Positions 44,220-53,424 of a stretch of 64,000 nt of DNA are shown one piece after another. The DNA is taken from positions 2,121,001-2,185,000 of the forward strand of contig NZ_CP064356.1 in NCBI RefSeq assembly GCF_018141545.1, read 5' to 3'. The position numbers and the translations under genes were made by a program. The stretch's first letter is position 1, and every line of letters begins with the position of its first letter. Under the pieces are notes generated by a model that saw only the letters and a program-made list of their open reading frames with translations, searched no databases and had not been told where the DNA came from. The stretch comes from Miltoncostaea oceani (GTDB lineage: Bacteria > Actinomycetota > Thermoleophilia > Miltoncostaeales > Miltoncostaeaceae).

Positions 44220-44567
44220 ATGGGCACCACGCCACCCCCCGAAGGCCCGCTCGACGACATCGACCCCGAGGACCTGCCGGTGGAGCCGCCCCTCGAGCTG
44301 GAGGAGCTCGACGACCTGGTCGACCGCACCATCGGCGACGCCCGGTCCGACGACCCCCTCGACCCCGCGCGGATCGCCGCGGAGGACGCCGGCGGCGGCG
44401 TCGCCGAGGGCTTCGAGCAGTCCGAGGCCCAGCTCATCGCGAACGCGACCGGCTTCGACGGCGGCGGCACCGAGCGCATCCTCGAGGACGCGTTCCCGGC
44501 CGAGGCGGAGCCCGACGAGGCCGTCTACGGCGAGGCCGACGAGGAGGACGTCTCGGAGGACGAGTAA
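44220..44567 (+). CDS. small highly acidic protein
   Basis: 115 residues with very high Asp/Glu content at both ends (DDIDPEDLPVEPPLELEELDD; EADEEDVSEDE) around a helical centre (EQSEAQLIANATGFDGGGTERILEDAF). It is soluble with no known domain. A strong GGAGG site precedes the ATG. It opens a run of small plus-strand stress-type proteins. Confidence 0.72.
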   Translation: MGTTPPPEGPLDDIDPEDLPVEPPLELEELDDLVDRTIGDARSDDPLDPARIAAEDAGGGVAEGFEQSEAQLIANATGFDGGGTERILEDAFPAEAEPDEAVYGEADEEDVSEDE

Positions 44568-44616
44568 CGCCCCGTCTCGCATGACGAGAGGCCTCCGCCG
44601 CGTCCGCGCCCATGCG

Positions 44617-44646
44617 TTGACAGCCGTCGGCACGTGGGCGTAGACC
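44617..44646 (+). promoter_or_regulatory. promoter of the DUF1059 gene
   Basis: A consensus TTGACA (44617-44622), 18-bp spacer and TAGACC (44641-44646). The leader then forms the hairpin annotated next. Confidence 0.5.
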
Positions 44647-44651
44647 GGACT

Positions 44652-44674
44652 CCCCCGTCCCCTCCGGACGGGGG
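44652..44674 (+). other. 5' leader hairpin before the DUF1059 gene
   Basis: CCCCCGTCC and GGACGGGGG pair perfectly (9 bp, 5-nt loop), about 20 nt before the ATG and just before the AAGGAGG site. It may stabilise or control translation of the message. Confidence 0.5.
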
Positions 44675-44693
44675 AACGTGAAGGAGGCATCGG

Positions 44694-44918
44694 ATGGCCC
44701 GGAAGATGGCGGACTGCCGTCGCTTCGAGAGCGATTCGGACTGCACGCTGACCATCATCGGCGACGAGGAGGAGGTCGTCCGCACCGCGGCCGAGCACGC
44801 CTCCTCGGTGCACGGTCACCACGACACGCCCGATCTGCGGGAACAGATCCGGGCGATGCTCGAGGACGAGGGCGCGTACGTGCCCGGCACGCGCGTGGCG
44901 GAGCCCTTCCCGGGCTGA
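44694..44918 (+). CDS. DUF1059 family protein
   Basis: 74 residues: MADCRRFESDSDCTLTIIGDEEEVVRTAAEHASSVHG followed by an acidic helix. This matches DUF1059 (C-R/D-x4-C...G.....AAEHA...H). The two cysteines and the AEHA/HGHH histidines could bind metal; the function is unknown. It has its own promoter and a leader hairpin, and a terminator hairpin follows. Confidence 0.85.
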   Translation: MARKMADCRRFESDSDCTLTIIGDEEEVVRTAAEHASSVHGHHDTPDLREQIRAMLEDEGAYVPGTRVAEPFPG

Positions 44919-44990
44919 CGTCCGCGACCCGCGTCGCACCGGGGCCGCGTCGCGGCCGCCGGGAGCGGGGAGCGGCCCCCTCATGACCGC

Positions 44991-45019
44991 GGTGGGCGCC
45001 CGGGGCTCGGGCGCCCACC
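44991..45019 (+). terminator. 11-bp perfect hairpin after the DUF1059 gene
   Basis: GGTGGGCGCCC and GGGCGCCCACC pair around a 7-nt loop, 72 nt past the stop, followed by CCTCCTCTC. Confidence 0.65.
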
Positions 45020-45151
45020 CCTCCTCTCGCCGCCCGCCGCCGGGAGGCGTACCATCGACGGTGGGAGCGTCTTCGCTGCGCGGCCGCCGAGGCGGGCCGC
45101 CCACCGCGGCCGGTCACGACGGCGGCCGGGAGGCCCGGGCCCATCCAGTCC

Positions 45152-46417
45152 ATGCTGGACTTCAGCAGGCGCGAGTGGTCGGTGCTCGCGCCGCTCGCCA
45201 CGGCGGGCTTCTTCGAGGTCTACGACGTCGCGCTGCTCACCCTCGCCGCGCCCCGCATCGCCCAGGGCCTCGGCGTCTCGATCGCGGCGTTCGGCATCGG
45301 CGTCGCGATCATCCGGCTCGCGACCCTCGGGAGCCTCCCGCTGCTGCGGCTCGCGGACCGCTTCGGCCGCCGGACCATGCTCATCGCCTCCCTCGCGCTC
45401 TTCACCCTCCTGACGGGCGCGACCGCGCTCGCATGGGGCCTCGTCGCGTTCGTCGTGCTGCAGAGCGGTGCCCGCGTCTTCCTCGCCTCGGAGGCGGCGC
45501 TCGCGAACCTCGTCGTCGCCGAGGAGCTCCGGCCCGACCGGCGCGGGACCGGCATCGCGACCCTCGGGATCATCTCGGGGCTGGGGTACGGCGCCGTCGC
45601 GGGGCTGCTGCTCGTCGTCCCCCTCACCCCCCTCGACTGGCGCCTCTTCTACGTGGTGGCGCTCGCCCCCCTCGCGGTCGCCGCGGTGCTGCGGCGCCGG
45701 CTGCCGGAGACCCGCTGCTTCGAGGTGGCGCGGGAGGAGTCCCGGGTGCAGACCTCGCTGTGGCCGCGGATCGCCCCGGACCTCCGCCGGCGGTTGTGGC
45801 GCGTCGTCGCCGTCGTCGGCGCGTTCGGCGCCGTCCAGACGAGCGGGTTCTTCTACGCCTCGGAGCTGGCGCAGACCGAGTACGGCTGGAACGGGGTCTT
45901 CACGGCGCTGATCCTCGCGGCCGCGGTCTTCGGGGTCCTGGGCTTCTGGCTGGGCGGGCGGATCGGGGACGTCGTCGGGCGCCGGCCGATGATCGCCCTC
46001 GCGATCGTGATGGGCGCCGCCGGGACGGTGCTGGTGTTCACGGAGGTCCGGGGCCTCTTCGCGCCGGGGTTCTTCCTGCTGGCGGCGGCGGGGTCGTGCT
46101 TCATCGCGTCGTCGGTGGCCTACATCGCGGAGCTGTTCCCCACCGAGGTCCGCGCGACGACGACGGCGTTCGTGCTGGCGTGCCAGGTCGCCGCCGGCTC
46201 GGTCGGCCTCGCCGTCCTCGGCGCCCTGTCGGGCGTGGTGGGCAGCTCGCTGCTCATGGTCGTCCTCGGCGCATGCCTCGCCCCGGCGGTGCTCTGCCTG
46301 CGGGGACTGCCGGAGACGGCGGGACGCGACCTCCTCCACGCGGCCCCCGCGGAGCCGCCGGTCGCCTCCGACGGCGGCGCGGGCGCGGCCGGCCCGGAGC
46401 CGCTCACGGCGCCGTGA
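45152..46417 (+). CDS. MFS transporter, sugar/metabolite-proton type
   Basis: 421 residues with 12 predicted membrane helices. MFS signature motifs are seen: LADRFGRR between helices 2 and 3, LGGRIGDVVGRRP in the second half, and FPTEVRATTTAFV, typical of the sugar/aromatic acid porter branch. The substrate is unknown. AGTCCA and TGGACT (6 bp, 3-nt loop) form a small hairpin that includes the ATG, which might reduce initiation. No regulator is adjacent. Confidence 0.9.
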   Translation: MLDFSRREWSVLAPLATAGFFEVYDVALLTLAAPRIAQGLGVSIAAFGIGVAIIRLATLGSLPLLRLADRFGRRTMLIASLALFTLLTGATALAWGLVAFVVLQSGARVFLASEAALANLVVAEELRPDRRGTGIATLGIISGLGYGAVAGLLLVVPLTPLDWRLFYVVALAPLAVAAVLRRRLPETRCFEVAREESRVQTSLWPRIAPDLRRRLWRVVAVVGAFGAVQTSGFFYASELAQTEYGWNGVFTALILAAAVFGVLGFWLGGRIGDVVGRRPMIALAIVMGAAGTVLVFTEVRGLFAPGFFLLAAAGSCFIASSVAYIAELFPTEVRATTTAFVLACQVAAGSVGLAVLGALSGVVGSSLLMVVLGACLAPAVLCLRGLPETAGRDLLHAAPAEPPVASDGGAGAAGPEPLTAP

Positions 46418-46488
46418 CGGGCGGGTGACGGCGGCCTGACGGCGGCGACCCAGACTCCCATGCGTCCACACCGACCGGGAGGGGTCCC

Positions 46489-46812
46489 CTGCACATCGTC
46501 ATCGTCACGTTCCGCCTGCAGGGCATCACGCACGAGGAGTTCACGGGGTTCACGACGGGCGTCGCGCCCGCGTTCGCCGACGTCCCCGGCCTGGTGGCGA
46601 AGGTCTGGCTCGCGGACGCCCACACCGGCGCCTACGGCGGCGTCCACCTCTTCGAGGACGCCGACGCGGCGGTCGCCTACCTGCGGTCGGACCTCTTCGA
46701 CCAGGCGGTGACGACGAACCCGCTGTTCACGGAGGTCGCGGTGCGGCGGGCGGCGGTGGTCGACGCGGCCACCGCGATCACCACGCCGGGACTCGCGGTC
46801 CCCGTCGGCTAG
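46489..46812 (+). CDS. YdhR-like (dimeric alpha/beta barrel) protein with apparent CTG start
   Basis: 107 residues reading, after the initiator, HIVIVTFRLQGITHEEF, then ...APAFADVPGLVAKVWL and YGGVHLFEDADAAVAYL. This is the layout of YdhR/ABM monooxygenase-like proteins. The family-conserved first strand (HIVIVTFRL) lies upstream of the first GTG (46594), so the true start must be near 46489. No ATG/GTG/TTG is available there, but a CTG follows GGGAGGGG by 4 nt. The reaction is unknown. Confidence 0.75.
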   Translation: MHIVIVTFRLQGITHEEFTGFTTGVAPAFADVPGLVAKVWLADAHTGAYGGVHLFEDADAAVAYLRSDLFDQAVTTNPLFTEVAVRRAAVVDAATAITTPGLAVPVG

Positions 46813-46967
46813 AGGAGGGCGGCGACGGCGAGCGCGACGCCGACCCAGAACGCGATGCACCCGCCGAAGGCGACGGCCCACACGGCGATCCTCGGCCAGT
46901 CGAGCCGGAGGGACGGCAGCGTGCGGGGTGCGGCCGCGGGGCGGGCGGTCGCGGCATACGGGGCCAT
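46809..46967 (-). CDS. small one-helix membrane protein, 52 aa
   Basis: An Ala/Pro-rich N-terminus and one C-terminal membrane helix (IAVWAVAFGGCIAFWVGVALAVAALL). The stop codon shares the palindrome CTAG with the stop of the convergent YdhR-like gene. The ribosome-binding site is weak, so this is a tentative call. Confidence 0.45.
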   Translation of the reverse strand: MAPYAATARPAAAPRTLPSLRLDWPRIAVWAVAFGGCIAFWVGVALAVAALL

Positions 46968-47081
46968 GCCGGGGATACTGGCCCTCCGCGGCCCCCGTGT
47001 GAACGGAGGTTTCCGGAGGTTCGTCCACATCCGCACGAACACCGGATCGCCTGAATCCGCGATACCGGGGCCCGGGGTGCC

Positions 47082-47528
47082 TCAGGGCGGGCTCCACCCC
47101 TCGAGGGGCGCCCGGGCCTCGTCGTGGAGGGCGGGTCCGTCCCAGCGGGTCGCGGGTGGGTCGCCGGGTGGGCGGACGGCGTCGTGCTGCCCGGTGGAGA
47201 GCGCGTACACGACCCGCCCGAGGCCGGCGTAGCCGATGGCGGTGGCGCACATCGCGCACGGCCGGCAGCTCGTGTACATCGTGGTGCCGCGCACGACCCC
47301 GGGTGCCAGCTCGCGCGCAGCCCAGCGGGCGAGCACGAGCTCGGGGTGGGCGGTCACGTCGCGCGCGGTGACGGTGCGGTTGCGGTCCTCGGCGAGGACG
47401 CGCCCGTCGGGTCCGACGAGGAGCGCCCCGTAGGGCTCGTCACCGGCGGCACGGGCCTCGTGCGCGAGGGCGATCGCCCGGCGCAGGTGCGCCACGTCGG
47501 TCTCCCCGATCCCTCCCGCCCCGCCCAT
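47082..47528 (-). CDS. nucleoside/guanine deaminase-like protein (CDA fold)
   Basis: 148 residues. The zinc-site motifs of the cytidine deaminase superfamily are seen as HPE (VTAHPELVLAR, in place of HAE) and SCRPCAMC (PCxxC). LVGPDGRVLAEDRNR and the C-terminal part resemble guanine deaminases and tRNA adenosine deaminase relatives. It would hydrolytically deaminate a base; which one cannot be told. No neighbour suggests a pathway. Confidence 0.87.
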   Translation of the reverse strand: MGGAGGIGETDVAHLRRAIALAHEARAAGDEPYGALLVGPDGRVLAEDRNRTVTARDVTAHPELVLARWAARELAPGVVRGTTMYTSCRPCAMCATAIGYAGLGRVVYALSTGQHDAVRPPGDPPATRWDGPALHDEARAPLEGWSPP

Positions 47529-47641
47529 CGCCCGACTCTACGAGACGGCGTCCTGATCGTCCCGTCCGGGCGATGGCGCCGGCCGTGCGGGCGGGCATAG
47601 GGTCGGACTCCGAGAGCGCGACTCCACCGCAGGGGGAACCC

Positions 47642-47926
47642 ATGTACGCGACCATCCGGATCTACGCGGACGCCGAGGGCCTGGCGGACGCGGTCGCCGA
47701 GCACCGGGAGGAGATCATCGGCCTCTTCATGCAGATCGAGGGCTTCCGGAGCTACCACATCGTGAAGACCGGCCCCGTCAGCGCGACCTCCGTCACGGTC
47801 TGCGACGACCGGGCCGGCGCGGAGGCCTCGAACCAGATCGCCCGGGACTACATCGCCGCGAATCTCGCGGACCTGACGATCGGTGCGCCCGAGGTGCACG
47901 TCGGCGAGGTGGCGATGTCCTCCTGA
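47642..47926 (+). CDS. small alpha/beta-barrel (ABM-like) protein, 94 aa
   Basis: MYATIRIYADAEGLADAVAEHREEI, then ...FMQIEGFRSYHIVKTG and SVTVCDDRAGAEASN. The beta-alpha-beta pattern with the GFRSY strand is typical of dimeric ferredoxin-like/ABM monooxygenase proteins. The function is unknown. TAGGGT at 47597-47602 may be its -10. It is similar in size and fold to the genes at 46489 and 47986, suggesting a local set of small barrel proteins. Confidence 0.78.
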   Translation: MYATIRIYADAEGLADAVAEHREEIIGLFMQIEGFRSYHIVKTGPVSATSVTVCDDRAGAEASNQIARDYIAANLADLTIGAPEVHVGEVAMSS

Positions 47927-47985
47927 CCACGGCCTACGGAACGGCCCGGACCGGTCCCCGGGCCGGGCGGACGAGGGGGACGACG

Positions 47986-48315
47986 ATGCCGCTCTACCTG
48001 TCGCAGTTCAGCTACACGCCCGAGACCTGGGCCCGGCTGATCGAGAACCCGGAGGACCGCGCGGCGGCCGCCCGGTCGTACATCGAGTCGGTCGGCGGGA
48101 CCCTCCACGGGTTCTGGTACGGGTTCGGCACCCACGACGGCCACACGCTGTGGGAGGCGCCGGACGACGTCTCCATGGCCGCGGTCGCCCTGGCGATCGG
48201 CGCGGGAGGTGCGGTCCACTCGTTCGAGACGACGGTGCTGCTGACGGTCGACGAGACGCTCGACGCCCTCCGCCGGGCCGGGGAGATCCGCTACCGCCCA
48301 CCGGGGACCGCGTAG
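47986..48315 (+). CDS. GYD-domain protein
   Basis: 109 residues: PLYLSQFSYTPETWARLIENPEDR, SVGGTLHGFWYGFGTHDGHTLWEAPDD, and a helix-strand ending in TVLLTVDETLDALRRAG. These match the GYD family (usually with a G-Y-D motif; here GTHDG). The family is uncharacterised and forms an alpha/beta-barrel-like fold. The ATG follows a GAGGGGGA site. Confidence 0.85.
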   Translation: MPLYLSQFSYTPETWARLIENPEDRAAAARSYIESVGGTLHGFWYGFGTHDGHTLWEAPDDVSMAAVALAIGAGGAVHSFETTVLLTVDETLDALRRAGEIRYRPPGTA

Positions 48316-48347
48316 CGCGGCCGGCGCCCCCTGGCCGGGCCCGCCGG

Positions 48348-48377
48348 TTGACAGGGGCGCGGCGCCGCGCGCATCCT
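48348..48377 (+). promoter_or_regulatory. promoter of the DUF4177 gene
   Basis: TTGACA (48348-48353), 18-bp spacer, CATCCT (48372-48377), 6 nt, then the ATG at 48384. It predicts a leaderless message. Confidence 0.5.
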
Positions 48378-48383
48378 CCGGGC

Positions 48384-48569
48384 ATGCAGAAGTGGGAGTA
48401 CCTCGTCGTCCCCCTGCAGGAGGCCGGTGGACTCAGGAAGTCCGGCGACATGACGCCCGACCGCCTCAACGAGCTCGGTTCGGAGGGGTGGGAGGCGGTC
48501 GGACTGACGCTGAAGAAGGGCGATCTGGTCGCGTGGCCGGTCGTCCTGCTCAAGCGCCCCGTCGACTGA
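48384..48569 (+). CDS. DUF4177 small protein
   Basis: 61 residues: MQKWEYLVVPLQE, LNELGSEGWEAVGL and VLLKRP. This is the compact beta-alpha-beta DUF4177 pattern (KWEYKVV...LN..G.EGWEL). The function is unknown. It is preceded by a consensus -35 and has no ribosome-binding site. Confidence 0.88.
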   Translation: MQKWEYLVVPLQEAGGLRKSGDMTPDRLNELGSEGWEAVGLTLKKGDLVAWPVVLLKRPVD

Positions 48570-48801
48570 GGGCGGTGACGCCCGGCCGGGCGCGCGCCGG
48601 CCTGGGGCACGAACGGCCGTAGTACCCCGCAGCCGGCCTCCGGGCGCGCGCGAATGGCGGACGGCCCCACGCGGTGATGTGGTGGCCGCATGCCCGGTCC
48701 CCTCGTCGGAGGCGGCGACCCGGGTCGTCGTCGATCGGTCGGGCGGGGCTCCGAGCTCCCGGCGCATCCAATGCGTCCCCCACGAGCTGAAGGAGGTCCC
48801 C

Positions 48802-49056
48802 ATGAACAGGCTCGTCCTCGCCGGCGTCGTGATCGCCGGCGTCGCGATCGCCGCGAGGCGCTTCGCGCCGCGGCTCCCCGAGGTGGACATCGGCAGGGCC
48901 ATCGCGGCGATGCCCGACAGCGCGCCGCCCAAGTGGGTGTTCAACAACGTCACCGCGATCCGCGAGAACACCGAGCGCATCCTGGAGATCCTGGAGGGAC
49001 GCGCGGCGTCGCCCGGGGGCGAGCCCCCCGGGGCCGGGCCCTCGTCCCCCGTGTGA
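48802..49056 (+). CDS. small protein with N-terminal membrane helix, 84 aa
   Basis: A short N-terminal hydrophobic helix (LVLAGVVIAGVAIAA), a Pro/Arg segment (RRFAPRLPEVDIGRAIAAMPDSAPPKW) and a helix (AIRENTERILEILEG). It has a strong AAGGAGG site. No family was recognised. The MPDSAPPKW..FNN..AIREN pattern may be a conserved helical hairpin. Confidence 0.68.
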   Translation: MNRLVLAGVVIAGVAIAARRFAPRLPEVDIGRAIAAMPDSAPPKWVFNNVTAIRENTERILEILEGRAASPGGEPPGAGPSSPV

Positions 49057-49232
49057 GCCGGCCGGGTCGGCGGCGCGCCCCTGATGAGCGGCCGGCGAGC
49101 CGATCCGGGGCCGGGTCGACAGTGCGCTTCTCGACACCTCGCCGCATGCGGGGGGATCTTGCAGACGGGGGGCGGGAGCGACGTCGCGCCCTCCCGCGGT
49201 GCGTTCGACCACCGGGTCACTCCCTGAGAGGA

Positions 49233-49269
49233 CCCCGTCCCCACCGGCGACCCCGCACGGGGGACGGGG
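49233..49269. terminator. 10-bp hairpin between convergent genes
   Basis: CCCCGTCCCC and GGGGACGGGG pair around a 17-nt loop, between the small membrane gene (stop 49056) and the SnoaL-like gene (stop 49302). Confidence 0.5.
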
Positions 49270-49301
49270 CGCCGGGGGGCGGGGCACGCGCACGACTCCG
49301 T

Positions 49302-49739
49302 CTACCTGGCCGGGCCGGCCGTCACCCCGCCGATGCTCAGCATGAGGGCGAGCGAGTCGAAGTAGTGGTCCATGACGGCGATCCGCCCGTCCGCCATCGT
49401 CATCGCCATGCAGGCGGGCGTGGCGACGGGGCGGTTCGTCGGCGCGATCATCGACCCGTCGGGGGCCGGCATGGGCCCGACGTGGTGGGCGCGCCACACG
49501 ACCTGCAGGGCGCACCGCTCCCCGCACGCCACCACGTCGACCAGCTCGCCGTGGTGCTCGGGCCCGAGGCCGTCCTTCCAGCCCCTGATGAGCTCGACGG
49601 CCGCGTCCGCCCCCGACGCGTCCCGGCCCGTGCCGTGCTCGCGGTAGACGAAGCCGTCCGCGAGCGTCGCGCGGAAGGCCTCCCAGTCGTTCTCGTTGAA
49701 GGCCCGGAGCATCTCCCGGGCGACTGCCTCAGAGTCCAT
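49302..49739 (-). CDS. SnoaL/NTF2-like protein
   Basis: 145 residues: AREMLRAFNENDWEAFRATLADGFVYREHGTGRD, VELIRGWKDGLGP, CALQVVWRAHHVG and MADGRIAVMDHYFD. This matches the ester cyclase/SnoaL branch of the NTF2 fold, which catalyses polyketide cyclisation or serves as a small-molecule binding fold. The substrate is unknown. The ATG is set by GGAGG 9 nt upstream. Confidence 0.85.
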   Translation of the reverse strand: MDSEAVAREMLRAFNENDWEAFRATLADGFVYREHGTGRDASGADAAVELIRGWKDGLGPEHHGELVDVVACGERCALQVVWRAHHVGPMPAPDGSMIAPTNRPVATPACMAMTMADGRIAVMDHYFDSLALMLSIGGVTAGPAR

Positions 49740-50075
49740 TGCGATGACCTCCCGCCGTGTGTGCCGTGCTCCATCCATACGGCCTGCCACCCGACGACGT
49801 CATCGGAGGCGATCCGACCGTCTCCTGCGGTTCGTCCGCAGCGGCCGCGGCGTCGATGCCGAGTCGTCGGGTCGCGTCCCTGCCGTCCCACGCATGCGTC
49901 GGGCGGCCCGGGGACGACGACGGTCCCCCACGCGAACGGGCCGATGGCCACACCGCCCACCGGCGTCCCCCACCCCCCACCGACCCCGCCACGGCGCCGG
50001 CGATGGCAGCCGGGAACCGGGGGGAGCGCCGCCGCCGCGACCGAGACGTCCGCGTGCCGCGCGAGCCCGCTCGGC
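49740..50075. other. intergenic stretch with nothing recognised
   Basis: About 340 bp between the SnoaL-like gene and the DUF72 gene fragment. No convincing coding frame, RNA gene or strong hairpin was seen on either strand. Confidence 0.5.
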
Positions 50076-50168
50076 CTAGCGGTTCAGCAGCTCCGTGAAC
50101 CGCGCGGCATTCCGCAGCGCGTAGTCGCGTGCGTTGTTGTTGAACTGCAACGCGACGTCCGCAGCCAT
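50076..50168 (-). pseudogene. orphan 3' fragment of a DUF72 gene
   Basis: 31 codons ending at a TAG. It reads ADVALQFNNNARDYALRNAA followed by RFTELLNR, matching the C-terminus of the intact DUF72 protein at 52507-53424 (VAVVFNNNARDYALRNASRF). The rest of the gene is absent here. At the DNA level a 59-bp block is 54/59 identical to the 3' end of the intact gene. It marks the outer edge of the island 50.1-52.6 kb. Confidence 0.8.
50086..50144 (-). repeat. 59-bp direct repeat, left copy (att-like)
   Basis: 54 of 59 positions are identical to 52538-52596, in the same orientation. It lies inside the DUF72 3' fragment. The longest exact block is 20 bp. It is interpreted as an old attachment-site duplication at the end of the DUF72 gene. 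Confidence 0.75.
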
Positions 50169-50184
50169 GCGGCTTTCCGGCGCG

Positions 50185-50220
50185 TGGACAACGTCTTGGA
50201 CAACCGCTTGGACAAGACAC
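50185..50220 (+). repeat. three tandem 12-bp repeats
   Basis: TGGACAACgtct, TGGACAACcgct and TGGACAAGacac follow one another just inside the left island edge. A two-copy version (TGGACAACgccc, TGGACAAatcc) occurs inside the right edge at 52419-52441. Read in plus they encode LDN/LDK repeats. Confidence 0.7.
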
Positions 50221-50346
50221 TCGGTCGCGCTCTCTGCTTCATCTGGACTTCCGCGCGCATCAACCGGGCCAACAGCGACCCTGAACCGACTTGCTTGGCG
50301 ATGCCCGTATGGGATTGGGTGGCCAGGACCCGAAGCGGAGGGCACG

Positions 50347-50784
50347 ATGGGTTCGCTAAGACTCGCCGACCTGCCAACAGACGAGAGTGCGCGCCTTTCT
50401 GCTGGCGTCATAATCAAGACGAAGCAGCTCGTGTTGGACCACATGACGTCTCACGCGATCGCGGCCAATAGCCCGGTTCGGAGTGAGCGTCGCGCCGCCA
50501 AGAAGGCGTCCAAGCACGAGTTGTCGGAGTTGCTCGACACGCTCAAGGCACTCGGACTTGGCGAAGGGGAGGCAAGAGAGCTGGCGCTTGGGGCCTACCG
50601 CGATGCTTCGGCGGGGCGGCCCCCCATCAGCGATCTGGTCAGCCTCGAAGCGGTTGCCGAAGACGCTTGGTCGCGAATCATCGACACGCTGGACTCGGGT
50701 GGCTACATCCATCGTGCCGATGCGATCGCCTTCATGAGGAGTCACGAAGCTGGCCGAACGGCGAGCCCCTCGGCAGGCGCGTGA
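50347..50784 (+). CDS. island hypothetical protein A, 145 aa
   Basis: A soluble, helix-rich protein: DLPTDESARLSAGVIIKTKQ, RSERRAAKKASKHELSELLD, LGLGEGEARELALGAYRDA. No family was recognised. The ATG has GGAGG 5 nt upstream. Codon use has clearly more A/T-containing codons than the rest of the window, as for the other island genes. The next gene starts 6 nt after its stop, so the two form a pair. Confidence 0.65.
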   Translation: MGSLRLADLPTDESARLSAGVIIKTKQLVLDHMTSHAIAANSPVRSERRAAKKASKHELSELLDTLKALGLGEGEARELALGAYRDASAGRPPISDLVSLEAVAEDAWSRIIDTLDSGGYIHRADAIAFMRSHEAGRTASPSAGA

Positions 50785-50790
50785 CGGTCC

Positions 50791-51171
50791 GTGGGCATAT
50801 TCCGACGCAAGCCCCCTAAGCCGCCTTGGCACCAGTGGGTTGCTCAGGCCAAGGGACAGCAGACCACCGCCTCCAACCTCATCGAGGAAAACGCCGCGCA
50901 TCCCAGTGTTCGCAGGGCCTCGGAAGAGGGAAAGCTCGCCAAGGCCATGACCCGTCTGGACTTCGCAGCGAAGTCCTTGCACGGGGCCTACCGCGCTGGC
51001 GCGTCCTGCGAAGAGATCGCGCGCGAATGGCTGGGCGACGACGACCCAGGAAGCGTCGAGCGAGTGCGGGCCGTTCTCGAAGACGGTGCTGCCCTCCGGC
51101 AGGGGTACGCCGACGCCTTGCCTGACATGGCCCTGCCCGACACAGGCTGGCACGAGAGCGCCCTCTCCTAA
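50791..51171 (+). CDS. island hypothetical protein B, 126 aa
   Basis: It starts at a GTG 6 nt after gene A: MGIFRRKPPKPPWHQWVAQA, a Pro/Lys-rich head, then helices (SNLIEENAAHPSVRRASEEG, CEEIAREWLGDD). No catalytic motif or membrane segment is seen. Paired with gene A it could be a two-gene accessory module, but I cannot assign a function. Confidence 0.62.
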   Translation: MGIFRRKPPKPPWHQWVAQAKGQQTTASNLIEENAAHPSVRRASEEGKLAKAMTRLDFAAKSLHGAYRAGASCEEIAREWLGDDDPGSVERVRAVLEDGAALRQGYADALPDMALPDTGWHESALS

Positions 51172-51274
51172 CTTCGCTGCGCCGCCCGCCAGGCGTCCAT
51201 CCGGTCCCCGGCGGACGGGAGTAGGTGGTGGCCTGAGCGTTCACGAGGGCCCCCGGCCCCCCACCGTGATCCGA

Positions 51275-51904
51275 TCACAGCTTCGGCAGAAGGGCGGCCA
51301 CCTCTATCTCGGCGCCGAAGAGGAGGTCTCGGAATTCCTCTCGCGTCGGCGGGGGGCGACCTCCGAAAGCATCGAGGGGGAGCACCACAGCATTCAGCGC
51401 GGACACCAGCGCCTCACACGCGGGGAGATCAAGGCTCCCCTTGAAGTGGAGGGCTTGCTCCAGGTCCGCCTTCTGCGTCCATATCTCCTCGCATCTGAGC
51501 GGCTTATCGGCGGGTTTCGGGTACCGGCTCGGCACGACCGGCACGACCAATGCGGGACCTCGGGAAAGACGTTCCAGGGGCTCCTGGATCCTGCGGAGGC
51601 GATCGAGGCGATCAAGGTCAGACAGGCTCCTGGCCGTCGTCTGGAGATCGTCGAGAGCCGACTTCGCGTCGGCGAGAACCTCATGGAGTTGACGGCTGTC
51701 TTCAGTCGCTGCGACCGCCACGAAGATGGCCCAGACCCCGAGGAGCGTTCCGATGATCGCAAGCGCATAGCTCACCCCTGAACCGCGCCAGAGCCCGAAG
51801 GAGAAGGCGACGGCCAGTACGGTCGGGACGATGAGGAACGCGGCCGCCTCCCAGGTCTTCTGATCGAACCTGCGCCAGGAGTAGGGAGGGGGCCGCTCGC
51901 TCAC
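51275..51904 (-). CDS. island membrane protein with cytoplasmic coiled coil, 209 aa
   Basis: Two membrane helices (AAAFLIVPTVLAVAFSFGLW and VSYALAIIGTLLGVWAIFVAV, about 20-68) are followed by a probable coiled coil (LHEVLADAKSALDDLQTTAR, DLDRLDRLRRIQEPLERL) and a C-terminal helical domain. No family was recognised. The GTG start has AGGA immediately before it. The gene is convergent with the gene pair A/B and lies in the lower-GC island. Confidence 0.65.
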   Translation of the reverse strand: MSERPPPYSWRRFDQKTWEAAAFLIVPTVLAVAFSFGLWRGSGVSYALAIIGTLLGVWAIFVAVAATEDSRQLHEVLADAKSALDDLQTTARSLSDLDRLDRLRRIQEPLERLSRGPALVVPVVPSRYPKPADKPLRCEEIWTQKADLEQALHFKGSLDLPACEALVSALNAVVLPLDAFGGRPPPTREEFRDLLFGAEIEVAALLPKL

Positions 51905-51941
51905 TCCTGCGGAGCGTAACGGCGCCGGGGGACGCCTTCGC

Positions 51942-52217
51942 TCACAGCCCCGCCGCAGCTCGCACCAGCTCGTCCCGCACTCGCGCCAGCACGGCTAGGC
52001 GCTCGGGGTCGTCACCGGCTGCGTCGATGTCCCTGGCCAGGTCGTCGCGCATGGCGACCAGCCGCTCCGGGTTGGCGCGCAGGTCCGCACGGATGGCGGC
52101 CAGCTCCTCCCGCCCTGCCATGAGGCCGTCGCCGAGGGCGGCCCACGGCCCCGCGTGGACGGTGTCGCGGGCAGTCAGGTAGTCGGTGCAGGCGGCGGCC
52201 ACGCTCGCGCCGTGCAC
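51942..52217 (-). CDS. small helical protein, probably 5'-frameshifted
   Basis: 91 residues, very helical (EELAAIRADLRANPERLVAM, RDDLARDIDAAG, LAVLARVRDELVRAA). A GTG at 52217 is the first start in frame, but the same frame reads sensible protein upstream (TIAGCGDPHDLTPAIEA). A strong GAGGAGG-ATG at 52292 begins an 18-codon peptide (MTEHDRPAPSRAAATRTT) in another frame. The most likely history is one gene of about 115 codons starting at 52292 that suffered a frameshift. No family was recognised. Confidence 0.55.
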   Translation of the reverse strand: MHGASVAAACTDYLTARDTVHAGPWAALGDGLMAGREELAAIRADLRANPERLVAMRDDLARDIDAAGDDPERLAVLARVRDELVRAAAGL

Positions 52218-52418
52218 GGCCTCGATCGCGGGGGTCAGGTCGTGCGGGTCGCCGCAGCCCGCGATGGTGCGGGTCGGTCGTGCTCGGTCATCACATCCTC
52301 CTCATTGGTGGTCCGGGCACAGGTCGGCGCGGCCGAGCCTTGGCCGTGCGGCACGGCGCGCCAAAGACGGCTCGTCCGCCGAAACAGACCCGCACGGCGG
52401 CCATTCAGTCCACCGCGC

Positions 52419-52441
52419 TGGACAACGCCCTGGACAAATCC
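52419..52441 (+). repeat. two tandem TGGACAA repeats at the right island edge
   Basis: TGGACAACgccc and TGGACAAatcc repeat with a 12-bp spacing and match the repeats at 50185-50220. Confidence 0.55.
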
Positions 52442-52506
52442 TGGTCCGGAATGCCCCGATTTGCCGACTCTTGCGTCCCGCGGGAAACCGGGACCGCGGC
52501 GATCTC

Positions 52507-53424
52507 CTAGCCCGAGATCCCTTTCCCTGATTGAGAAAGCAGCTCCGAGAACCGCGACGCGTTCCGCAGCGCGTAGTCGCGCGCGTTGTTGTTGAAGACG
52601 ACGGCGACCTCCTGGGCGCGTTCGGCCATGTCGAGGACGGGTCCGACCCACTCCTCCATCTCGTCGTCCGTGTAGACGTGGTCGAATCGCTCGGCGACGC
52701 TGCGGCCCGTGTTCCACGTCGCCGCGTTGCGGCCGTGGAGGCGGAGGTACGCGAGGGCGGGGCTCGTGACCTCGACGATCGGTGGCATCAGGTTCTTCGC
52801 GTCGCTCCGGGGGGCGTCAACGCACACCCACGCCGCGTCGCGCTCGCCGAGCATCTCGGCGGTGGCACGCCGCTCCTCCGGCTCCGCCCACGACCGGTGC
52901 CGGAACTCGACGGCGGTGCGCGCCGGCTTCAAGCGGTCCACGATCCGGGCGATCTCCCGCCGCTGGGCGTCGCCCGCCACCACGTACGGCGGCAACTGCA
53001 GGAGGATCGCGCCGAGCTTGTCGCCGAGGGGACCGCACGCCTCCAGCAGCGAGTCGATGACGGCGTCCCGCAGCTCGCGGCTCGGCTTGCGGATCCGTCC
53101 CCGCCGGTCCGGCTCGTACGGCAGGTCCCGCAGCGGCGGCGGCAGCCGGCCCGGCTCCGACGGGTGGCCCGAGATCACCTGGTGGGCCTTCACGTGGAAG
53201 CGGAAGCCGTCCGGTGTCCGGTCCGCCCACGCCTCCGTCGTCGGGACGGTCGGCAGCGCGTAGAAGCTCGCGTTCACCTCGACCATCGGGAAGCGCTCCG
53301 CGTAGTACCGGAGCCTCCCCTCCGCGTCGTCCTTCACGCCGGCCGGGTACCAGCCCGCCTTGATGAACTCGGGGTCGGTCCAGGAGGCCGTCCCCACGCG
53401 TACGCCGCTCGCCATTCCCGGCAT
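52507..53424 (-). CDS. DUF72 (YecE-like) protein
   Basis: 305 residues with a TIM-barrel-like DUF72 pattern: VRVGTASWTDPEF, GWYP, LRYYAERFPMVEVNASFYALP, FRFHVKAHQVISGH, LQLPPYV, TAVEFRHRSW, AYLRLHGRN, and a C-terminal FNNNARDYALRNA. The function is unknown. The 3' 59 bp are duplicated at 50086-50144. The tail (SQSGKGISG) differs from the displaced copy (NR), as expected if an integrated element supplied a new 3' end. Confidence 0.9.
   Translation of the reverse strand: MPGMASGVRVGTASWTDPEFIKAGWYPAGVKDDAEGRLRYYAERFPMVEVNASFYALPTVPTTEAWADRTPDGFRFHVKAHQVISGHPSEPGRLPPPLRDLPYEPDRRGRIRKPSRELRDAVIDSLLEACGPLGDKLGAILLQLPPYVVAGDAQRREIARIVDRLKPARTAVEFRHRSWAEPEERRATAEMLGERDAAWVCVDAPRSDAKNLMPPIVEVTSPALAYLRLHGRNAATWNTGRSVAERFDHVYTDDEMEEWVGPVLDMAERAQEVAVVFNNNARDYALRNASRFSELLSQSGKGISG
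52538..52596 (-). repeat. 59-bp direct repeat, right copy (att-like)
   Basis: The partner of 50086-50144, inside the 3' end of the intact DUF72 gene. Confidence 0.75.

Follow-up and report, generated by a model that had tools for sequence, protein, structure and literature searches.

A probable relic of an integrative element at the 3′ end of a DUF72 gene in Miltoncostaea oceani

Why would a gene of the DUF72 family be accompanied by a second copy of its own last codons about 2.45 kb away, with DNA of a different composition in between? The question is raised by a locus in Miltoncostaea oceani, within a stretch of 64,000 nucleotides (contig NZ_CP064356.1 of assembly GCF_018141545.1, positions 2,121,001 to 2,185,000; hereafter the window, with coordinates counted from its first letter). 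We conclude, at a probability of about 0.92, that the 2.4-kb insert is a decayed integrative element, which entered at the DUF72 3′ end by site-specific recombination of the tyrosine-recombinase type. The locus, in a genome designated G000 in our set, is defined by five features.

52507..53424, minus strand: DUF72 gene, the target (Pfam DUF72, E=1.1e-60), with last codons probably supplied by the inserted element; tail FNNNARDYALRNASRFSELLSQSGKGISG
52538..52596, minus strand: gene-end copy of the putative attachment repeat, inside the DUF72 gene, where the 5′ side of the host gene joins the element side
50086..50144, minus strand: distal copy of the putative attachment repeat, where the element side joins the original DUF72 tail; stop at 50076-50078
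50185..50215, minus strand (genome 2171185-2171215): three tandem TTGTCCA repeats of 12-bp period, putative arm-type sites, distal side
52419..52437, minus strand (G000:C1:2173419-2173437): two tandem TTGTCCA repeats of 12-bp period, putative arm-type sites, gene side

The duplicated tail and its flanking repeats

The copies at 52538-52596 and 50086-50144 are identical at 54 of 59 nucleotides (91.5%) and lie in the same orientation at a spacing of 2,452 bp, as an earlier note, made from the letters of the window alone, had described. The duplicated core sits within the final 30 codons of the DUF72 gene. The target frame is rebuilt, the gene copy running in frame to its own stop, and the distal copy likewise has a stop: it translates as FNNNARDYALRNAARFTELLNR and ends at 50076-50078, the plausible C terminus that had been claimed for it. 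Over the first 60 nucleotides of the tail copies, four of the six differing codons are synonymous. The preceding sequence tells the two copies apart. Upstream of the gene-end copy, 30 nucleotides match the corresponding genes of two other genomes of the genus, G002 and G003, at 27 and 25 positions and the distal copy at 12; the 30 nucleotides preceding the distal copy are thus unrelated to the gene.

Just inside each tail copy lie the TTGTCCA repeats, all five exact and in one orientation. The exact pair TTGTCCA-N5-TTGTCCA matches three times in the 4.54-Mb genome, always at the island ends (two overlapping matches at one end and one at the other), where composition predicts 0.002 matches. In 2000 shuffles of the two flanks, five copies of a 7-mer were never reached, and none of 400 random flank pairs scored as well as the island. 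A one-mismatch paired motif on contig C2 was dropped as chance, a backward control having given four such motifs. Tandem end repeats are the layout of the arm-type sites of lambda-like tyrosine integrases. The TTGTCCA repeats are likely to be arm-type sites of this kind, to which the island's own integrase would have bound.

In the mechanism that we propose, the attachment site of the element (attP) would have carried a DUF72-like 3′ end, a copy of the last DUF72 codons, and a tyrosine recombinase would have joined it to the chromosomal attachment site (attB) in the gene. Integration would have given the gene a new in-frame ending (52507-52596) composed of host gene and element tail, and would have stranded the original ending at 50076-50144, so that the distal copy would consist of element and original tail. 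The paired end repeats would have served the integrase as arm-type sites, and the integrase would later have been deleted except for its last codons. We infer, rather than observe, the crossover position, the past mobility of the island and its present immobility. The earlier note had read the locus as the work of an element that integrates in a gene end and rebuilds it, and this agrees with the in-frame replacement tail, the paired end repeats and the parallels in genomes G003 and G614 described below.

The insert of about 2.4 kb has an overall guanine-plus-cytosine (GC) content of 67.4%, against 76.5% for the window. The drop spans about three quarters of its length: GC is 65.7% at 50145-51920, a value as low in none of 1174 equal-length segments outside the stretch, and 72.4% in the 0.6 kb that adjoins the gene (51921-52537). 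The claim that the DNA between the copies is lower in GC and holds unknown genes is confirmed.

Simple duplication of the DUF72 3′ end in place, the DNA between the copies having arrived in a separate event, would account for an island that has no working integrase and for copies that are just 91% identical. It would leave unexplained why paired repeats unique in the genome stand at both island ends, why low-GC orphan genes occupy exactly the space between the copies, and why G003, with another repeat, and G614, beside an integrase, show this layout again at the same codons. We regard such a duplication, which the earlier note had named as the competing explanation and which the paired repeats at both ends counter, as most improbable.

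Occupied and single-tail loci in the family

The decayed-element reading was compared with the DUF72 loci of other Miltoncostaeaceae (family f1, to which the window genome G000 belongs; G001 to G003 are other genomes). At least 2.5 kb downstream of DUF72 is available in 21 family loci, and a second tail is present in two of them, those of the window and of G003. The other 19 lack it without exception; a relative without the island but with both copies, which the earlier note had named as refuting its reading, is not among them. The gene next after DUF72 in many single-tail loci stands at a distance of about 9 kb in the window. For the class, 399 genomes were sampled, and among the matches listed (to about E=0.145) only the window and G003 have a second tail next to DUF72. 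Weak tail repeats at L083, L098 and L119 (64-84% over 25-81 nt) were dropped as chance. G001 has no close DUF72 ortholog, and the contig of G002 ends 1.8 kb after the DUF72 gene.

In the genus, G003 thus has the other occupied site, with different cargo, the same codons and a broken integrase. Three features are needed for the comparison.

L042:10647-13353: island of G003, with a second DUF72 tail at its border (67 nt, 88%, first 44 nt identical)
50347..50784, plus strand: gene X of the window, 145 residues, predicted to be all-helical, the one gene common with the G003 island
51168..51227, minus strand: vestige of an integrase C terminus in the window, about 19 codons plus stop, found by tblastn with the G003 integrase fragment

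The gene order in G003 is GGDEF, DUF72, island and then genes in common with the window, and the second tail lies at the same DUF72 codons as that of the window. The island contains an excisionase-like helix-turn-helix (HTH) gene (TIGR01764, E=2.1e-9; PADLOC reports HTH resemblance only), a PIN-domain gene and a truncated tyrosine integrase with a broken frame (PF00589, E=2.8e-7 on the fragment). At L042:12140-12487 the broken integrase frame is preceded by a ribbon-helix-helix-like stretch, as might result if an antitoxin-like gene had become joined to the frame. The repeats at the island ends are TTGGCCC-like and have an 11-bp period; the two occurrences of the pair in the 3.37-Mb chromosome are those at these ends. 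Gene X is 55% identical to L042:12687-13187, which adjoins the distal border in G003.

On the far side of the window island, about 5 kb (44600-50000) separates it from a conserved gene at 44220 and has no counterpart in G003. The genes of this segment, such as a SnoaL-like gene at 49302-49790, have host-like GC.

The vestige match covers 51171-51227, followed by a stop at 51168-51170. It scores 28.9 bits without composition adjustment and 27.3 bits with it (E=0.001 over 64 kb); the best of 200 shuffled queries scored 21.9 bits. Because it matches the C terminus of the G003 integrase and runs in the same direction relative to gene X, the window island most likely once had a G003-related integrase that has since been lost. 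As no integrase is left beyond this vestige, the island is probably a relic, and with all but the last integrase codons deleted it is probably immobile unless helped in trans.

Help in trans is what a different account would make the rule, with the island as a non-autonomous, satellite-like element that is still moved by an integrase whose gene lies elsewhere. In favour of this, none of the five TTGTCCA copies deviates, though the core copies differ; yet the genome has no other exact paired TTGTCCA site, and a vestigial integrase C terminus points to the loss of an integrase that the island itself had possessed. Since the exact pair occurs only at the island ends, no resident integrase shows an att site of the TTGTCCA type. 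We consider a satellite still in motion very unlikely.

Within the decayed-element reading, the islands of G000 and G003 could descend from one ancestral insertion in the genus that later diverged, or could have entered separately. Gene X occupies the same place and orientation in both islands, and the distal flanks share an element-side TGCAG just before the core, as one insertion would predict. Against this, the tails match at 54 of 60 positions within each genome and at 48-52 of 60 between genomes, a pattern that gene conversion could also produce; the end repeats have neither sequence nor period in common; and there is no common cargo beyond gene X and the integrase vestige. We hold a single ancestral insertion to be rather unlikely.

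The DUF72 end in another class, and islands at tRNA genes

Integrases linked to the DUF72 end were also sought outside the family. At one locus outside the family (L112), among 90 DUF72 loci scanned, a 304-residue tyrosine recombinase lies directly behind DUF72. DUF72 is upstream on the same strand in four of 25 loci that contain relatives of this recombinase (the genome of L112 counted), and these come from three families.

L112/L164, L165, L166, L185: loci of DUF72-linked recombinases (304-310 residue lineage)
L189:2515-17045: G614 element, comprising DUF72, integrase, a 14.1-kb phage-like element and a second tail
L189:19749-19869: decayed second integrase in G614 (52% over 63 residues), after the distal copy

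In two of the four loci the contig stops before any element end. The search that the earlier note had suggested found its case in G614, a genome of another actinobacterial class, where an integrase stands beside a duplicated tail; 13 further loci and stretches gave no new case and only G614 again. Here a 310-residue tyrosine integrase begins 64 bp past the end of DUF72; after it come an excisionase-like HTH gene, a terminase small subunit, a tape measure gene and WhiB. A second DUF72 tail lies 14.1 kb on, has an identical core of 38 nucleotides and reads NCYRDYGVRNAQQMMRLLTSENTST to a stop. The decayed second integrase comes after this distal tail copy, which suggests the successive entry of two elements, in tandem at one site. 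The element resembles the window island in that it lies directly past the gene and the same DUF72 codons (RDY..RNA) are duplicated; in an in-register comparison of 39 nucleotides, the gene of G614 agrees with that of the window at 32 positions and with that of G003 at 30. It differs in having a 310-residue integrase and phage genes and in its length of 14.1 kb, and no paired end repeats were found there. As a DNA pattern, the DUF72 tail gave no matches in viral contigs, and the single match of the tail peptide in phages (E=1) was rejected as chance.

As far as sequence comparison can tell, integrating elements have used the DUF72 3′ end repeatedly, because loci of the family and of another class have elements there. 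With slightly more confidence than doubt, we further propose that the RDY..RNA codons are a recurrent att site across actinobacterial classes, used by at least two integrase groups: one with paired arm repeats in Miltoncostaeaceae, and the 304-310 residue lineage, which four genomes from three families have behind DUF72, with elements stacked in tandem in one.

Gene ends of the more familiar kind are occupied in the same genome. Among the seven regions with an integrase that were examined, three are islands with an exactly duplicated tRNA end (43-55 bp) at their borders.

L154:8901-19008: tRNA-Gly island, 45-bp repeat, 10.1 kb, full-length integrase, end-repeat score 0
L155:5537-9132: tRNA-Arg island, 43-bp repeat, 3.6 kb, truncated integrase, end-repeat score 2
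L156:6815-10429: tRNA-Cys island, 55-bp repeat, 3.6 kb, full-length integrase, end-repeat score 0

Paired end repeats are clear in the tRNA-Gly and tRNA-Cys islands. The tRNA-Arg island holds three tandem paralogous open reading frames (ORFs) at L155:6070-8462 that resemble SUKH-type immunity proteins. Like the DUF72 island, all three are small and have a duplicated gene end at both borders; unlike it, they target tRNA genes, their repeats are exact, and the integrase is full-length (Gly and Cys) or truncated (Arg). The DUF72 island is built likewise, a protein gene standing where they have a tRNA. No tRNA gene was found across the 64-kb window, and a tRNA target for the window island was rejected.

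Known systems offer two comparisons. According to PMC6379469, e14 of Escherichia coli integrates in the 3′ end of the protein gene icd, supplies an in-frame end and leaves the old end as a 163-bp duplicate. The window island shares this rebuilding of a protein-gene 3′ end and the leftover duplicate; e14 uses another gene and is a 15-kb prophage, whereas the window holds a shorter duplication and a 2.4-kb relic. The second is yecE, a DUF72 gene of E. coli and, according to PMC9431244, PMC8705337, PMC10675304, PMC8112680 and PMC5592225, a well-known integration target of Shiga toxin (Stx) and other phages. Both cases have a DUF72 family gene as the target of an integrating element. The att sequence given in PMC5592225 maps to bases 86-96 of the 819-bp K-12 yecE, near the 5′ end, whereas the window core is at the 3′ end, so the window site is not of the yecE type. 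An account of the DUF72 3′ end as an integration site was not found in the open-access literature, subscription journals and supplements lying outside the search. The 3′ end thus appears to be new as a site, and the kind of element known. The proposal that DUF72 is a non-tRNA integration site is to be narrowed accordingly: the 3′ end is used, but the gene as a phage target was already known from yecE.

Several observations weigh against a decayed integrative element. None of the ten Phage_integrase matches of the genome falls in the window island. At 91%, its tail copies fall short of the full identity seen in the repeats of the tRNA islands in the same genome, and must therefore have drifted or have differed from the start. 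The end repeats of G003 score 1, equalled by 25 of 400 random flank pairs, and the score of 2 for the tRNA-Arg island is at chance level. The loci that appear unoccupied by sequence represent the family and not a strain of the same species. In G614 paired end repeats were looked for and not found, and the exact borders are uncertain because the decayed second integrase comes after the distal copy. The other three genomes with DUF72-linked recombinases (G399, G438 and G411) have no second tail within the sequence covered.

Cargo of the island and wider meaning

Gene X was followed beyond the two islands. Near-full-length matches were confined to G000 and G003 among 399 genomes of the class and 396 of the phylum, the others being partial and weak. 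Such weak, partial stretches in the class search (L054-L056) were read wider, gave no match to the query integrases and were rejected. The protein is modeled confidently with five helices (predicted local distance difference test, pLDDT, 86), and its fold has no counterpart at E<=0.001 in either structure library. None of 29 pattern matches in viral contigs was confirmed, and gene X was not found in the phages and plasmids searched. A hint of a terminase small subunit is weak (E=0.033). From its conserved place we would guess at a role in element upkeep. The remaining cargo is as follows.

50791..51171, plus strand: gene Y, 126-residue orphan, no family match above cut-off, present only in this genome among 42 of the family
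51275..51904, minus strand: gene Z, 209-residue orphan with a possible membrane segment, all Pfam matches below cut-off
51942..52217, minus strand: small ORF in DNA of near-host GC (72.4% for 51921-52537), no family match above cut-off

Searches for gene Y in phages and for gene Z in plasmids found neither. Beyond its own genome, gene Z is matched once, weakly (E=3.6e-4, 25%), among 149 genomes of the class, and PADLOC gives it one weak match (E=0.03). Apart from the gene X hint, no phage structural or packaging genes were found in the island. The island ORFs tested have no match to relaxase or conjugation genes, and a conjugative element (integrative and conjugative, ICE, or integrative and mobilizable, IME) was rejected.

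The locus adds the 3′ end of a protein gene to the list of integration sites. A second DUF72 tail is a cheap search handle for small islands, and for little-studied Actinobacteria the linked recombinases are candidate integrases whose target is predicted. Since two classes share the use of these codons, conserved 3′ ends of coding sequences may act as att sites in the way that tRNA ends do.

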